A stretch of DNA of 64,000 nucleotides from Bacteroidales bacterium (lineage in GTDB: Bacteria; Bacteroidota; Bacteroidia; Bacteroidales; UBA12077), in NCBI GenBank assembly GCA_016342685.1, contig JAEINU010000009.1, positions 62,001-126,000 on the forward strand. The letters run 5' to 3'. Below are positions 42,328-50,801 of the stretch, piece after piece (the first letter of the stretch is position 1; every line of letters begins with the position of its first letter). Made by a program: the position numbers and the translations under genes. The notes under the pieces were generated by a model. It was given only the letters and a program-made list of their open reading frames with translations, was not told where the DNA came from and made no database searches.

Positions 42328-45300
42328 CTAATAATTCAAATTCGTAGCCAACCATTTTTCCACTTCTTCCACACTCATATTTTTTCTTTGGGCATAATTT
42401 TCAACCTGATCTTTACTAATTTTCTGAACACTAAAATATTTTGATTCAGGATGAGCAAAATACAATCCACTAACAGATGCACCAGGGTTCATCATAAAGC
42501 TTTCAGTTAATTTAACTTGTATATTCTTTTCTGCTTTTAATAGTTCAAAAATGGTTTTTTTCTCGGTATGATCAGGACAAGCAGGATAACCAGCAGCAGG
42601 TCTAATTCCGCTAAAATTTTCTCGAATTAGCTCTGTTACATCCAAGTTCTCTTTTGGAGCATAGGCCCAATAATCTTTTCGTACTTTTTGATGCAACAAT
42701 TCGGCAAAAGCTTCGGCTAAACGATCGGCTAAAATCTTTAGCATAATTGCACTATAATCATCATTCTTTGCTTTAAACTTTTCAACATGCTCTTCTATTC
42801 CAATTCCACATGTTACAGCAAAAACTCCAATGTAATCTTTAATTCCAGTTTCTTTTGGGGCAATAAAATCGGAAAGGCAAGCATTACTTTCTTCTTCTTT
42901 TAATTGCTGATTTCTTAAATGATATAGAACTTTAGCAACATTCTCTCTGCTTTCATCTTCGTACACTTCAATATCATCGCCAATAGAATTTGCAGGATAA
43001 ATCCCGAACACGGCACTCGCTGTTAGCATCTTATTATCAATAATTTGATTTAACATTTCCTGTGCATCATCGTATAATTTTTTAGCTTCTTCGCCTTTAA
43101 CAGGATCATCAAAAATCTTAGGATACTTTCCACTAACCTCCCAAGCATGGAAAAAGAATGTCCAATCGATATATTCTGCAATTTCTTTTAAAGAATAATC
43201 TGTTAAAACGTTATTCCCTATAGCTTTAGGTGAAGCAATAAGTGACTTCTCCCAATTGATATTCATTTTATTTTTTCTTGCTTGATCAAGATTAACATGC
43301 GTTTCTCCAGCTTGCTTAGCCTGATTTCTCTCTCTTAGAACACGATACTCTTCAATAAGCTCTTTTAAATAATCTTGTTTTAAAGTTGCAGAAAGTAAGT
43401 TGCGAACAACACCCACGCTTTTTGAAGCATCCTTAACATGAATAGGAGGCACATCAAGTTCTGGGGCAATTTTCACTGCTGTATGAATTTTCGAAGTTGT
43501 TGCTCCTCCAACCATTAATGGAATATGAACATTTCTTCGTTTCATTTCTTCAGCTACATGAACCATTTCTTCTAATGATGGAGTAATTAATCCACTTAAT
43601 CCAATCACATCGACATTTTCTTTGATTGCAGTATCAATAATTTTTTCGGCAGAAACCATTACTCCTAAATCAATAATTTCGTAATTATTACACGCCAAAA
43701 CAACACCAACAATATTCTTTCCAATATCATGAACATCACCTTTAACTGTTGCCATCAAAACTTTTCCTGCAGCACTTGTTTTACCCGAAAGTCTTTTTTC
43801 TTCTTCAATAAATGGCAACAAATAAGCAACGGCTTTTTTCATTACACGAGCACTTTTTACAACCTGTGGTAAAAACATTTTTCCCGATCCAAATAAGTCA
43901 CCCACAGTATTCATTCCATCCATTAAAGGCTGTTCAATAATCTCCAATGACTGATTGAAAAACTTTCTGGCTTCTTCAACATCCACATCAATAAAATCGG
44001 TTATTCCTTTTACCAATGCATAAGATAATCGTTCTTGAACAGGTTTTTCTCTCCACTCATCTTTCTTTTCTTCCTTTTTATCAGTAGCAACTATCTTTTC
44101 GGCAAAAACAATTAAACGTTCGGTTGCATCTTTCCTTCTATTCAAAACAACATCTTCAATTAACTGAAGTAAATCTTTTGGAATATCATCGTAAACTTCT
44201 AACATTCCGGGGTTTACAATTCCCATATCCATCCCTTCATTTATTGCATGAAATAAGAACGCTGAGTGCATTGCTTCACGCACAGTATTATTTCCCCGAA
44301 ACGAAAACGACAGATTACTTACTCCACCACTAATCTTTGCATGTGGTAAGTTTTCCTTAATCCATTTTGTAGCTTTAATAAAATTAACCGCATAATTATT
44401 ATGTTCTTCGATTCCGGTAGCAACAGCTAATACATTCGGATCAAAAATGATATTTTCAGGTGCAAAACCAACTTTCTCTGTAAGTATTCGATATGATTTC
44501 TCTGCTATCTCAATTTTACGTTCATAAGTATCTGCTTGTCCTTTTTCGTCGAACAACATCACAACTGTTGCTGCCCCATATCTACGAATAAGTTTAGCAT
44601 AGCGCATAAATACCTCTTCGCCTTCTTTTAAACTTATTGAGTTTACAATAGATTTTCCTTGTACACATTTAAGTCCTGCCTCGATCACACTCCATTTCGA
44701 AGAATCGATCATGATAGGCAGTTTAGAAATATCTGGTTCGGAAGCAATCAAATTCAGAAATTTTGTCATTGAAGCTTCAGAATCTAACATACCTTCATCC
44801 ATACAAACATCAATAACCTGAGCTCCATTTCCAACCTGATTTCGAGCTATTGATAATGCTTCATCGAATTTTTTTTCTTTTATTAATCGTAAGAACTTTC
44901 TTGATCCGGATACATTGGTTCTCTCACCAACATTAACAAAATTACTTTCTTTAGAAACGGTTAAAGGTTCTAAACCACTTAAACGAGTCAAAGCTTCTAT
45001 TTTAGGTAACTTCCGTGGCGGATATTTTTCGGCAATCTCGGCAATTTTCTTTATATGCATAGGATTTGTACCACAGCAACCACCAATGATATTTATAAAA
45101 CCATCTTTTAAATATCCTTCAACTATATCAACCATTTGCTGAGCAGATTGATCGTACTCACCAAACTGATTTGGCAACCCTGCATTTGGATGTGCACTAA
45201 CATGGAATTTTGAGATCCTCGATAATTCTTCAACATGCTGTCGTAATTGCTCAGCTCCAAAAGCACAATTTAATCCTACACTCAACAAATCAACATGCGA

Positions 45301-46002
45301 TACTGAATTATAAAATGCTTCTAAAGTTTGCCCGGAAAGAGTTCTTCCACTGACATCAGCAAGTGTACCTGAGATCATTACCGGAAATATTATTCCCTTA
45401 TTTTCGAATAGCTCTTCGATCGCAAATAAAGCAGCTTTTGCATTTAGGGTATCAAAAATAGTTTCAACAATAAGAACATCTACGCCACCATCTATTAAAC
45501 CTTCAGCTTGTTCGTAATATGCTTCTTTCATGTCGTCGAAATTAACAGCACGAAACCCGGGATCATTTACATCAGGAGACATTGATGTAGTGCGATTTGT
45601 TGGTCCCATTGAACCCACAACAAACTTCTCTTTACCAGGATTTTGCTTCATAAAATCAGCAACAGCTTTTTTAGCAATTTTTGCCGATTCGAAGTTTATC
45701 TCATAAGCAAGACTTTCCATATGATAATCTGCCATTGAGATTTTATTTGCATTAAAAGTATTTGTCTCAATTAAATCGGCTCCGGCTTCAAGATATTCTG
45801 TATGAATATTCTCAATGATTTTCGGATTTGTTAATGATAGTAAATCATTATTACCTTTAACCTCAAAATCGTAATCTTTGAAACGTACCCCTCGATAATC
45901 TTCTTCTTTTAATTTATGCCGTTGGATCATTGTACCCATTGCACCATCAAGTACCAATATTCTTTTAGTAAGTTCTGTTTTTATTCTTTCAACATGATTC
46001 AT
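42328..46002 (-). CDS. metH: Cobalamin-dependent methionine synthase
   Basis: A full-length 1224-residue enzyme in four modules: homocysteine-binding barrel (1-320, Zn cysteines in GLNCAFG and [10 protein letters not shown]), pterin-binding barrel (350-620, [13 protein letters not shown]-like), B12-binding domain (about 650-890, [14 protein letters not shown] with the cobalt-ligating His near 759) and the SAM-dependent reactivation domain (to the end, with [15 protein letters not shown]). It methylates homocysteine with 5-methyl-THF. Downstream and 5 bases away is its reductase. No cobalamin riboswitch is visible in the gap upstream. Confidence 0.97.
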
Positions 46003-46423
46003 TTTCTTATTTTTAAACTTGTCCTTCTTTGATAAACTTAGAATGACAATGATTACTAAATTAAATTGCTGGTCACACTGAGCCTGTCGAAGTGTGATTT
46101 TTATGATTTGATAATCTTTTATTTATAATACCTGTATAATATGATTTATCTGAGCATTTTAAAATATAAACATAATATGTTTTCATAGTTATATTTATTT
46201 ATGTCTATCCTTCGACAAGCTCAGGATGACAGCAAGCTTACAATTCAGTCAACATTCTTCAATAGATTCAGAATAGCACTTTATTTTTTCTTCCATGTTC
46301 ATTCTTCGACAAGCTCAGGATGACATTACTTTCTATTATTAATCTTAGGTTATCAGAATAAGCCTGTCAAAGTTTTAAAAACTTCCATCCGAATTTACAA
46401 AATACTTATATATTATCAACAAA
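46003..46423. other. 421-bp gap with four dispersed-repeat copies
   Basis: Between hom and metH. Copies of the CTTCGACAAGCTCAG-type repeat lie at 46023-46048 (degenerate), 46071-46092 (inverted), 46210-46231 and 46304-46325. No frame, tRNA, riboswitch or clear promoter was recognised. It may hold structured RNA inside the met transcript. Confidence 0.6.
46210..46325. repeat. Two direct copies of the dispersed 22-bp repeat
   Basis: 46210-46231 and 46304-46325 share CTTCGACAAGCTCAG then GATGACA, 94 bases apart in the same direction. Confidence 0.7.
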
Positions 46424-47611
46424 TTAATTTCTGATATAAGCCAGAAAAACATCCAATTTGGTTAAAATTGACTTAAGTTTTAACAAGTTTGATAACTTTA
46501 TTTTACCAATAACATAATTACTATTTTGACCTGAATATTTTTCTGTAATATTTTCAAATTCAAAATGTGAGAAATCTACCATATTTTTGTAACGCAAATA
46601 GATTTCAATTTCATGATCGATTTTGTATTCGAGCTTTTTAAAATACTTCTGTTTCTTATACTCGTATTTATAATTATGCGATCGTGCAGTGATATCGGAT
46701 AAAACAGCTGAACCCGTTGGAAAACCGCCAGCTCCTTTCCCAAACATAAATTGTTTGTCGTAGAACTCACCTTGAATAACTACACCATTATACTCATCTT
46801 CCACATTATAAATATATTTATCTGGGCGTACCAATCGTGGAATTACAAACATCGTAAACGATTCTTCGTCCAATTTAATTAATTGTGCAACCAGTTTAAT
46901 TTTCAGATTCTTCTCTCGTGCATATTGAATATCTCCCTCCTGAATATTTGAGATACCATAGTTAAAAACTTCGTCAGGCTTAACAAACGTTCCTAATGCG
47001 TGTGTTGCTATAATAATCAACTTATATAAAGAATCGAATCCATCGACATCTAGACTTGGATTACTTTCAGCAAATCCTAAATCTTGAGCTTGTTTTAAAG
47101 CTATTTCATAGCTTAATCCTTCGTTAAAAATCTTCGAAAGAATATAATTCGATGATCCATTTAAAATCCCCGTTACAGATTTTAATAAATCGTTATCATA
47201 ATATTCTTCAATGTTTCGAATAATTGGAATACTTCCACAAGCTGATGCATCATACAATAAAGATGTGTTTGTTTCTTCTTGAAGATCAATTAATTCATCT
47301 AAATGGTGAGCTAACATCTTTTTATTCCCAGACACAACGCTCTTTTTATTTTGCAAACAGCGTTTAACAATATCATAAGCTTCCTCAGCATTATCAATCA
47401 ACTCAACCACCAAATTAATTTCTGGATCGTTAATGATATCATCTTTATTGTATGTAAACTGATTTTCAGCTAATGATCTCTTCTTATCTTTTTGTCGCAC
47501 ACAAATTTTGCTAATACCTGCATCGACTGTTTTGCTATGTTGAAGCACATGGTAAAGACTTTCGCCTACAACTCCATAGCCGAAAAGTCCAATATTTATT
47601 TTTTGATTCAT
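46424..47611 (-). CDS. hom: Homoserine dehydrogenase
   Basis: A 395-residue NAD(P)-dependent enzyme that reduces aspartate semialdehyde to homoserine. The N-terminal Rossmann fold (IGLFGYGVVGESLYHVL) is intact, as is the dimerisation/catalytic part with YDASACGSIPIIRNIEEYYDND and KGAGGFPTGSAVLSDI. A short C-terminus suggests no ACT regulatory domain. It is monofunctional (no aspartokinase part). It precedes metH in the methionine cluster, after a 421-base repeat-rich gap, and shares the direction of metX and metY. Confidence 0.94.
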   Translation of the reverse strand: MNQKINIGLFGYGVVGESLYHVLQHSKTVDAGISKICVRQKDKKRSLAENQFTYNKDDIINDPEINLVVELIDNAEEAYDIVKRCLQNKKSVVSGNKKMLAHHLDELIDLQEETNTSLLYDASACGSIPIIRNIEEYYDNDLLKSVTGILNGSSNYILSKIFNEGLSYEIALKQAQDLGFAESNPSLDVDGFDSLYKLIIIATHALGTFVKPDEVFNYGISNIQEGDIQYAREKNLKIKLVAQLIKLDEESFTMFVIPRLVRPDKYIYNVEDEYNGVVIQGEFYDKQFMFGKGAGGFPTGSAVLSDITARSHNYKYEYKKQKYFKKLEYKIDHEIEIYLRYKNMVDFSHFEFENITEKYSGQNSNYVIGKIKLSNLLKLKSILTKLDVFLAYIRN

Positions 47612-47656
47612 TTTTTTATACTCTATGTCTTTAATTTATCAAATACTTCAGCCACC

Positions 47657-47726
47657 CTTCGACAGGCTCAGGATGACATTAATTGCAGATAGCAATCAAG
47701 AGATTGTCATGTTAAGTTTATCGAAA
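47657..47726. repeat. Inverted pair of the dispersed repeat between hom and metX
   Basis: 47657-47678 (CTTCGACAGGCTCAG then GATGACA) and a degenerate inverted partner at 47705-47726 (TGTCATGTTAAGTTTATCG). Confidence 0.65.
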
Positions 47727-47749
47727 CATAGACAATAGATTCTAAGTAT

Positions 47750-48766
47750 TTAATTTTCTAAAAACTTGTTAATGATTTTTGTTAATTGTTCTGTTTCAAT
47801 TAAAAAACCATCATGACCATAAAGCGAATCAATTTCAATGAATTTGGAATTTGGAATGTATTTTTGTACCTCACTGATCTCATCAGGGAAAAACAAAATA
47901 TCGGAAGATATTGCTATTAGTAATGACTTAGCTTTAATTCCTGCCAACGCTTTTTCTATACCTCCACGACCTCGACCCACATTATGTGTGTCGAAAGATT
48001 TTGTGATGGAATAGTATGAATAAGCATTAAATCGTTTTACTAATTTTTCGCCTTGATATTGCTGATACGAAATCGCCCTGAAATTTTCTAGTTTTTCTTT
48101 TTCAGGATCTTGCTGAGTTTTGTTATACGTTGCTGCATTTCTATAACTCAATAAAGCTATTGATCGTGCAGCTTTTAATCCATTTAAACCAGCTTTTTCG
48201 TGATTATTTTTAAATGTAGGATCAGCATTTATAGCTAATCGCTGTGATTCATTAATTGCAATATTCCAAGGTGAAGCAAATGCTCCGCTACCAATAAAAA
48301 CCAAATTCTCAATCAAAGAAGGATTTATAATACTCCATTCCAGTGCCTGAAAGCTACCGATTGATCCGCCAGTAATCATAAAGATTTTCGAAATACTCAA
48401 ATGTTCTCTTAACAAGTCATGAGCATTTACCATATCTCTAATGGTGATTAATGGGAAATCGTGATAATATGGTTCGTTCGTTTTAGGATTTATTGATAAA
48501 GGTCCTGTGGTACCATAACAAGAACCTAAAAAATTCGCACATACAATAAAATATTTCGATGTGTCGAACAATAATCCATCTCCAACCATATTTGGCCACC
48601 AGTCAGCAACATCGGAATTGGCAGTTAAGGCATGACAAACCCAAATAACATTATCTTTTGCTTCATTTAAATTACCTGTGGCATGATATGAAATTTGAAT
48701 GTCGTGCAATGATTGCCCGTTTTCAAGTTTTAATTCTCCTTTGTATTGAAATTGATGTTCTGTCAT
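47750..48766 (-). CDS. metX: Homoserine O-acetyltransferase
   Basis: A 338-residue alpha/beta hydrolase acetylating homoserine. Nucleophile elbow GGSIGSFQALEW with the catalytic Ser, Asp in SDILFFPDE, His in YGHDGFLIE, plus GTTGPLSINP and RDMVNAH. I use the ATG at 48766, since the 16 residues upstream in the frame do not resemble the family. Length is slightly short but usual. Acetylhomoserine goes to MetY, encoded upstream, so the pathway uses direct sulfhydrylation. A gap with hairpin repeats separates it from metY. Confidence 0.95.
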   Translation of the reverse strand: MTEHQFQYKGELKLENGQSLHDIQISYHATGNLNEAKDNVIWVCHALTANSDVADWWPNMVGDGLLFDTSKYFIVCANFLGSCYGTTGPLSINPKTNEPYYHDFPLITIRDMVNAHDLLREHLSISKIFMITGGSIGSFQALEWSIINPSLIENLVFIGSGAFASPWNIAINESQRLAINADPTFKNNHEKAGLNGLKAARSIALLSYRNAATYNKTQQDPEKEKLENFRAISYQQYQGEKLVKRFNAYSYYSITKSFDTHNVGRGRGGIEKALAGIKAKSLLIAISSDILFFPDEISEVQKYIPNSKFIEIDSLYGHDGFLIETEQLTKIINKFLEN

Positions 48767-48923
48767 AATAGTTTTTATTAAGCGGATGCTACTTTTCGAT
48801 GTTACAAATAACAATAAACAATTATCAAATAAATAACATTTTTAGCTGTTTTGAAAATTGATTTGAATTTTGAATTTTGCTATTCCTAAATATTCGAATA
48901 AATAGCTTTCCGCTTATTTTTAA

Positions 48924-48955
48924 ATTCCGGGTCTTCATTTCATTTCGCCCGGAAT
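48924..48955. repeat. Hairpin repeat, type A
   Basis: ATTCCGGG, loop TCTTCATTTCATTTCG and CCCGGAAT. A compensated relative occurs at 50402-50433: the stem is changed in both arms while the loop is nearly identical. Confidence 0.7.
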
Positions 48956-48985
48956 GACAACATTATGTTTATGTTTTAAAAATGC

Positions 48986-49067
48986 TGTCATAATGAGCCT
49001 GTCGAAGTATGAACAGTTTTAGTTTGCTTAATTATTTTGTCTACCCTTCGACAAACTCAGAATGACA
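48986..49067. repeat. Inverted pair of the dispersed repeat between metX and metY
   Basis: 48986-49007 reads TGTCATAATGAG then CCTGTCGAAG; 49046-49067 reads CTTCGACAAACTCAG then AATGACA, giving an inverted pair around a 38-base spacer. Confidence 0.7.
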
Positions 49068-49074
49068 AAATATT

Positions 49075-50433
<1,359 letters not shown>

Positions 50434-50458: not shown

Positions 50459-50486
50459 TTCGGAAAGACATTAATCTACTCTCCGA
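50459..50486 (-). promoter_or_regulatory. Candidate attenuation hairpin after the leader frame
   Basis: On the minus strand TCGGA begins at the base right after the leader stop and pairs with TCCGA at 50459-50463, with AG/CT inside. No T run follows, so it is more likely a structural switch than a terminator. Confidence 0.3.
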
Positions 50487-50564
50487 CTAGCGCATGCACA
50501 TAGGCAAAAGCGGCATCGTGAAATTGTTAAACCAAAAATGATTAGCAATTACAAAACCTAACAC
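50487..50564 (-). CDS. Candidate Met-rich leader peptide of the methionine cluster
   Basis: A 25-codon frame from GTG (50564-50562) to TAG, with AGGAG (complement of 50572-50576) seven bases before it, a strong Shine-Dalgarno that most genes here lack. Its last ten residues read TMPLLPMCMR: three Met and one Cys. It lies between the SAM riboswitch and metY and is followed directly by a hairpin. Leader frames rich in the regulated amino acid are known from attenuation systems, so starvation for Met may stall ribosomes here. Overlapping frames in this stretch are closed. The role is inference. Confidence 0.5.
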   Translation of the reverse strand: MLGFVIANHFWFNNFTMPLLPMCMR

Positions 50565-50605
50565 GGAATTACTCCTACAAAAAAATTCTTTAATCATGAT
50601 TTTTT

Positions 50606-50739
50606 GCGTTTAGTTTATAATTTCCCGTCTGACTATTTCAGACCCTGGGTTAGGTATTAGCACCATGGAACATATTTTGTTCCGGTTGCTAGAGGTTCTC
50701 AGAGCCTAATCTCTCCCCTCTTCTTTATAAATCAAACGC
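50606..50739 (-). ncRNA. SAM-I riboswitch
   Basis: On the minus strand the core reads GAGGGGAGAG, CTCTGAGAACCTC, TAGCAACC, a P3 hairpin GGAACA/TGTTCC, GGTGCTAATACCT and ACCC, a close fit to SAM-I as recalled from Bacteroidota. P1 pairs GCGTTTGATTTATAA (50725-50739) with TTATAAACTAAACGC (50606-50620), 15 positions with two mismatches. A GTCTGA-AATAG-TCAGAC hairpin fits P4. It lies 238 bases before metY and in the expected orientation. The expression platform was not identified. Confidence 0.85.
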
Positions 50740-50768: not shown

Positions 50769-50801
50769 CAAATATAAGAACAAATTTTTGTGATTTCCAA
50801 A
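50769..50801 (-). promoter_or_regulatory. Promoter of the methionine cluster
   Basis: On the minus strand a TTTG (-33, 50798-50801) and TATATTTG (-7, 50769-50776) are 21 bases apart, matching the Bacteroidota consensus TTTG/TAnnTTTG. Transcription would start about 25 bases before the riboswitch. Confidence 0.6.

Follow-up and report, generated by a model that had tools for sequence, protein, structure and literature searches.

A methionine-rich leader reading frame behind SAM-I riboswitches of Bacteroidales and its candidate role in a two-input gate

We analyzed a 64,000-nt stretch of a Bacteroidales genome (the window; contig JAEINU010000009.1, positions 62,001 to 126,000) and found on its minus strand a 36-codon leader ORF that starts right behind a SAM-I riboswitch, ends in a cluster of Met codons and precedes metY. 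Leaders of this kind recur at many SAM-I loci of the order, and comparison of their sequences makes it very probable that they are a real, protein-coding element in the translational slot of the riboswitch and that they are translated. We also consider it probable, with considerably less assurance, that SAM gates initiation at the leader and that Met supply is read by ribosome stalling at its end. If this is true, bacteria can chain two sensors of one pathway such that the first gates the second, with the product SAM sensed through an aptamer and the precursor Met through the ribosome.

A conserved leader ORF lies between the SAM-I riboswitch and metY

The original prediction described a 25-codon frame with a GTG start, a strong Shine-Dalgarno sequence and a Met-rich end, situated between a SAM riboswitch and metY and directly followed by a hairpin. 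The frame is present on the minus strand (50564-50487) and reads VLGFVIANHFWFNNFTMPLLPMCMR up to its stop, with AGGAG at 50576-50572, 7 nt 5' of the GTG. Its neighbors are those described (Table 1), and the hairpin pairs 50486-50479 with 50467-50460, beginning at the first nucleotide past the stop. The start, by contrast, was misplaced: AGGAG and GTG occur in one of ten aligned genus genomes, the present one, and we conclude from this alignment that the strong Shine-Dalgarno sequence ahead of the GTG is a coincidence. Organisms of this kind are said to use Shine-Dalgarno sequences little. The GTG was rejected in favor of the ATG at 50597, 33 nt (11 codons) upstream, which is present in all ten genomes.

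The aptamer is the sole SAM-I match in this genome. Behind the leader, metY, metX, a homoserine dehydrogenase gene and metH follow one another on the minus strand (42328-50367), and the pathway as a whole may thus be under the control of this leader. The tail pattern matches once in the window at up to three mismatches, with 0.01 matches expected. Upstream of the aptamer lies a promoter-like pair, which presumably matches the Bacteroidota-type consensus; TAnnTTTG occurs within 70 nt 5' of the aptamer at 56 of the 73 loci surveyed below, where shuffled sequences give 5.0 on average and 9 at most. The inverted repeat between leader and metY is particular to this genome and probably stands outside the control system. 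ATTCCGG hairpins with other loops were seen in other leaders and flanks, for example at L003.

Table 1. Features of the leader region, in window coordinates
Feature	Position	Strand	Evidence
Promoter-like pair: TTTG, 21 nt, TATATTTG	50769-50801	-	TTTG half by eye
SAM-I riboswitch aptamer (RF00162)	50612-50733	-	66 bits; gathering score 44.4
Extended P1; arms 50739-50725 (5') and 50620-50606 (3')	50606-50739	-	Read from sequence
Leader ORF, 36 codons, MIKEFFCRSNSVLGFVIANHFWFNNFTMPLLPMCMR and stop	50487-50597	-	ATG in 10 of 10 genus genomes; codon comparison
Met-rich end, MPLLPMCMR	50490-50516	-	Pattern with SAM-I aptamer in 16 of 44 collection stretches
8-bp hairpin straight after stop	50460-50486	-	95.8% of cells paired, nine chosen sequences
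Inverted-repeat hairpin ATTCCGG...CCGGAAT between leader and metY	50402-50433	-	Single genome copy at up to 3 mismatches
metY, O-acetylhomoserine sulfhydrylase, controlled gene	49075-50367	-	TIGR01326, 674.6 bits; cut-off 495.1

A search of 20 genomes of the genus, this one included, located the aptamer in 11, and ten of these (this genome and nine others) were aligned; G007 was left out because the first-ATG rule picks another frame there. Read from its sequence, the G007 leader (L013) has the tail TMPHMPMCMCKKKD before its stop, and its aptamer-proximal ATG lies in a different frame. Counted from the ATG equivalent to 50597, the ten leaders comprise 36 to 40 codons, and both the TMPLLPMCMR end and the hairpin behind the stop are kept in the genus. 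In the L009 and L010 leaders, loss of the stop lengthens the frame by four codons, which counts against a gate that depends on stalling near the stop.

Pairwise comparison across the genus gave 13 synonymous and 252 non-synonymous differences in the first 12 leader codons and 95 and 30, respectively, in the last ten, which bears out the synonymous bias that had been anticipated for the end of the frame. The synonymous fraction was 0.327 in frame versus 0.115 and 0.127 in the two other frames, and 9 of 300 column shuffles reached the observed value, which is modest support for coding. An end conserved as protein behind a beginning that is free to change would be as expected for a leader and would not fit a working small protein. 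That the ORF nonetheless encodes a functional small protein, or is a frame open by chance in RNA whose conservation has another cause, strikes us as very improbable: the modest shuffle result speaks for this option, whereas the freely changing first 12 codons speak against it, as do two results of the survey below. Pfam and NCBIfam contained no match for four leader peptides, a result that weighs for neither reading. Two losses had been named in advance as evidence against the frame, and only that of the GTG with its Shine-Dalgarno sequence was observed; the Met codons were kept. The Cys codon of the tail, which had also been expected to persist, reads Gly or Ser in a sister genus (L041, L004).

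Two further candidates were rejected by eye. Pairing between ACCUAAC in the aptamer and GUUAGGU in the leader, suggested by a single-sequence fold, meets UUGGAU in G022 and AUAAGU in G006, and a second small ORF at an ATG in the hairpin loop lacks this ATG in G006, G018 and G021.

Met-tailed leaders recur at SAM-I loci across the order

SAM-I was found in 55 of 198 order genomes searched, with 62 matches. We surveyed 73 loci, made up of the 60 order matches outside G000 and G006 and 13 family loci that include these two genomes, and took as the ORF start the first ATG, at most 60 nt from the aptamer, with an open frame of at least 12 codons; a small ORF has up to 60 codons. By this rule, 56 loci have a small ORF, six run straight into a long gene and 11 have neither. 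The long gene is metH by motif in five of the six cases, and the sixth, at L140, reads like metH. The rule is conservative, in that L126 was scored as lacking tail Met because an earlier ATG masks an ORF ending SMRMRPCAQ.

Met is concentrated at the ends of these ORFs. In the first listed ORF of each of 32 families, Met accounts for 57 of the 384 residues in the last 12 positions versus 4 of the 526 residues before them (Fisher p about 3e-18); two or more tail Met occur in 21 families, at least one in 25 and M-x-M in 18. With close kin included, 40 of the 56 ORFs carry at least two tail Met (1.3 in shuffles, maximum 5). Since selection for Met inflates a count of reading frames, this count was redone on 43 order-level ORFs unselected for Met, whose last 13 codons contain 78 ATG in frame and 11 out of frame. 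Such clusters, here of Met, are a feature of attenuator leader peptides, in which codons for the regulated amino acid gather toward the end of a short ORF. Recurrence in 25 of 32 families is a further argument against a small protein or chance frame, and so is the range of 14 to 47 codons among the order ORFs with at least two tail Met. At 39 Met-leader loci, 54 of the 84 codons that follow a tail Met begin with C and 20 are CGC, which yields a recurrent ATGCGC.

Among the 60 order loci, two or more tail Met are present at 28 and one or more at 36; the frame behind SAM-I riboswitches, for which a search in related genomes had been proposed, thus recurs across the order. Seven loci with a small ORF that lacks tail Met and 11 without an ORF by the rule count against a Met-sensing leader as the general arrangement. 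The 28 loci precede metY (13), metH (7), aspartokinase (5) and a DUF39-type gene (2), with one unassigned; these and related genes, as judged from sequence, are amino-acid genes of the kind found behind attenuator leaders. None of the five metB-type order loci has a leader with at least two tail Met. Outside the order and within the same phylum, where SAM-I occurs in 314 of 395 genomes, 46 loci picked for variety among the best matches contain 12 small ORFs, which have four tail Met in total and never two or more in one ORF. The same rule applied to 30 TPP loci inside the order returned six small ORFs without tail Met.

The leader start occupies a slot within predicted reach of the aptamer stem

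At 46 of the 60 order loci (6.7 expected), 9-16 nt separate the aptamer from the first ATG, and all 28 ORFs with at least two tail Met start in this interval. At six order loci, the leader slot holds the start of a metH-type gene, 12-20 nt from the aptamer and without a leader, which provides a natural argument that SAM acts on the slot. With P1 free to extend, its predicted end falls a median of 5 nt ahead of the leader AUG (49 loci, without shuffle control, leaving out L013 and loci with an AUG beyond 25 nt) and a median of 7 nt before the start of the long gene (6 loci); in the window, the extended P1 read from the sequence closes about 8 nt ahead of the leader AUG. These models place the leader start within reach of the aptamer stem, as would be the case for a riboswitch-gated uORF. 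TAnnTTTG lies 27-30 nt before the aptamer at the leaderless loci L101, L102 (also at 59), L103, L112 and L113 and mostly 37-55 nt before it at leader loci, as if sparing room for a longer P1.

A slot common to leaders and directly preceded metH genes would also suit a relay in which SAM is the only input, leader translation keeps the RNA open or shields it from Rho or nucleases, and the Met codons have another use. A precedent is the Mbox riboswitch, which is reported to regulate a uORF along with Rho termination; the portion of PMC12810186 drawn on here states no amino-acid sensing for it. We regard such a relay as distinctly unlikely because it leaves unexplained both the in-frame excess of Met in the tail (57/384 versus 4/526 in the body) and the existence of Met-tail ORFs without a SAM-I match (L309, L311 and L025, described below).

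The Met-rich end recurs in a riboswitch-blind search

A DNA-level search for MPxxPMxMR and a following stop, made without regard to riboswitches, covered a collection of 84,980 species and matched 44 stretches, of which 16 contain an Rfam SAM-I aptamer and the other 28 contain none. Eight of the 16 are genomes already in the genus search, and the other eight include two pairs of near-copies, L033/L046 and L040/L056. The matching stretches come from Bacteroidota or Bacteroidales-type MAGs, with one labeled 'Chlorobiota', and the genes read behind them include metY, metH, metX, aspartokinase and the DUF39-type gene, whose product scored 123.8 versus a TIGR03287 cut-off of 363.95 and which we take to bear the name DUF39. 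A strict phylum-wide pattern matched 1 of 395 genomes, this one, and proved too strict for variable tails, which is why the aptamer-anchored searches were adopted.

The extended end NF(T/I)MPLxPMxMR was found again beyond the genus, and within the genus the tail Phe, Asn, Pro and Arg are conserved amid synonymous changes (the 95 versus 30 given above). Conservation of residues other than Met counts against a pure reading of Met codons and suits an arrest peptide as well, that is, a finished MPLLPMCMR-like end that halts the ribosome making it, at the stop or close to it. The signal for such an arrest would be a ligand in the exit tunnel, whether Met, SAM or another molecule, and Met would be needed as a residue rather than as a hungry codon. 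TnaC, which arrests the ribosome in response to Trp, is the model for this mechanism. The neighbors of Met differ across families (MPRMR, MRMR, MDMRGMRM, MGMH, MCMCWRY), and in eight chosen related pairs, with L115 used twice, Met columns are kept in 16 of 21 cases versus 40 of 90 for other columns; both results argue against arrest, which we consider unlikely.

The RNA after the stop suggests a gate that is attenuator-like at most

The hairpin comparison in Table 1 omits L008 (other register) and L010 and L012 (repeats of L009 and L006). Its nine sequences contain no double changes by which covariation could be seen, which counts against the gate proposed below. At the 39 loci that have one tail Met or more, folding around the stop is modestly stronger than in shuffles at start positions -20 to +30 (mean z -0.4 to -0.8), and past +30 it is weaker. 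A terminator-like site of -8 kcal/mol or below is present at 6 of the 35 loci with a Met leader, as against 5 of 10 ORF-less order loci and 17 of 43 from outside the order (each comparison giving p of about 0.05). Sites at Met-leader loci are also slightly stronger than in shuffles (-2.8 versus -1.5 kcal/mol), and some Met leaders may be classical attenuators. A strong intrinsic terminator was not found at 29 of the 35 Met-leader loci, and a search for terminator and antiterminator structures identified none in the window leader and no enriched alternative pairing. Pairing of the Met codons with downstream RNA was rejected as a candidate; its motifs are not enriched, and duplex energies exceed those of shuffles only slightly in strength (mean z -0.47, with 3 of 39 loci below -1.5). 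We therefore call the leader attenuator-like at most and do not claim membership among classical attenuators.

The sequences themselves establish the ORF, its place behind the aptamer, the in-frame Met cluster, the association with SAM-I and with methionine genes and, within the genus, the hairpin. From these features we infer translation of the leader, stalling, an AND logic and an involvement of Rho, which would act together as follows. At high SAM, the extended P1 would close a few nucleotides before the AUG, leaving the leader untranslated and the met genes off. At low SAM, the leader would be translated. If Met were short as well, the ribosome would halt on Met codons near the stop, methionyl-tRNA being scarce, and would cover the 5' arm of the post-stop hairpin such that the downstream gene is expressed. 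With ample Met, the ribosome would depart, the leader RNA would be exposed and expression would end early. As a guess, this early end would most likely come about through Rho, which we propose because most loci are without a strong intrinsic terminator. Our preferred interpretation, held with some reserve, is that the SAM-I platform through much of the order is a Met-codon leader ORF that works as a gate for SAM and then for Met-tRNA, built from separable modules.

Relation to known systems

Ribosome-mediated attenuators of the trp, his and leu types have short leaders that gather codons for the regulated amino acid toward their end.

The comparisons that follow rest on excerpts of the cited papers. 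The Cys leaders of Actinobacteria are without terminators, and Rho has been suggested for them (PMC1262725). The present leader resembles both groups in its clustered codons for the regulated amino acid near the leader end and differs in that it starts right behind a riboswitch and that no antiterminator pairing was found. A further likeness is to metL, a Met leader proposed before metNIQ in Streptomyces lividans (PMC8079986), which is also short, has an end rich in Met, Cys and Arg (CMCRRMCAF before the stop), precedes a methionine gene set and, according to the same paper, has hairpins and no typical Rho-independent terminator. In contrast, metL is described as a leaderless transcript and belongs to another phylum with another target (import), and the excerpt places no riboswitch before it and a SAM riboswitch at a different locus.

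In Mycobacterium tuberculosis, riboswitch-gated uORFs are described for B12 (PMC11260477) and Mbox (PMC12810186). As proposed for the present case, an aptamer governs translation of a short ORF upstream of the gene under control, to which Mbox adds Rho-dependent termination; the ligands are different, and the excerpts do not describe these uORFs as amino-acid sensors. Expression of PPE2 depends on translation of its uORF, whereas here the gap between leader and gene is tens to hundreds of nt. The aptamer itself belongs to the same family as other SAM-I (S-box) elements, RF00162, and serves the same pathway, and the two inputs recall the tandem of SAM-I and an AdoCbl switch before Bacillus clausii metE (PMC2258182). 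That tandem consists of two aptamers, unlike an aptamer and an ORF, and the present loci have a Met-codon ORF where SAM-I usually has a terminator or gene start. Platforms that fit none of the criteria in PMC2258182 were assumed there, in the part drawn on, to be translational. The leader would equip SAM-I of this order with a concrete platform of the translational kind. The open-access literature within our scope, which also takes in PMC9373788, PMC7366714 and PMC2864571 and has subscription papers and preprints outside it, yielded in its excerpts no SAM-I followed by a Met leader. The 28 of 60 order loci with at least two tail Met and the six leaderless metH-type loci supply a test set.

Aptamer and leader also occur apart

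Upstream of metY, 40 chosen loci, close kin included, were searched for leaders without SAM. A Met-tail ORF was present at 12 of 15 loci with a SAM text motif and at 2 of 23 without it, and no start could be read at the remaining 2 of the 40; at least one genuine aptamer escaped the text motif (that of L314, in genome G474). A Met-tail leader lacking a SAM-I match was seen at L309 and L311, the former before metY, and at L025, before metH; no Rfam match at the gathering score was found for L309, L025 or L026. The L309 leader (G460) is rich in Met and Cys, reading MNATTLHTPLSAPATMPMCMCCCGNHS before its stop, with the end TMPMCMCCCGNHS. The SAM-less metH copy in G020 (L026) is frame-broken, which counts against a Met sensor that works apart from the aptamer.

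As for the two stacked sensors of the original prediction, one for SAM and one for Met or Cys supply, the SAM and Met part is well supported by the comparison and recurs across the order, and Cys is reduced to a minor theme. In the SAM-I slot before metY at L136 (G579), the leader ends SSCCCFCCC, and that of its family-mate L147 ends YMRMQ; a switch of the sensed amino acid is a possible explanation of the Cys run.
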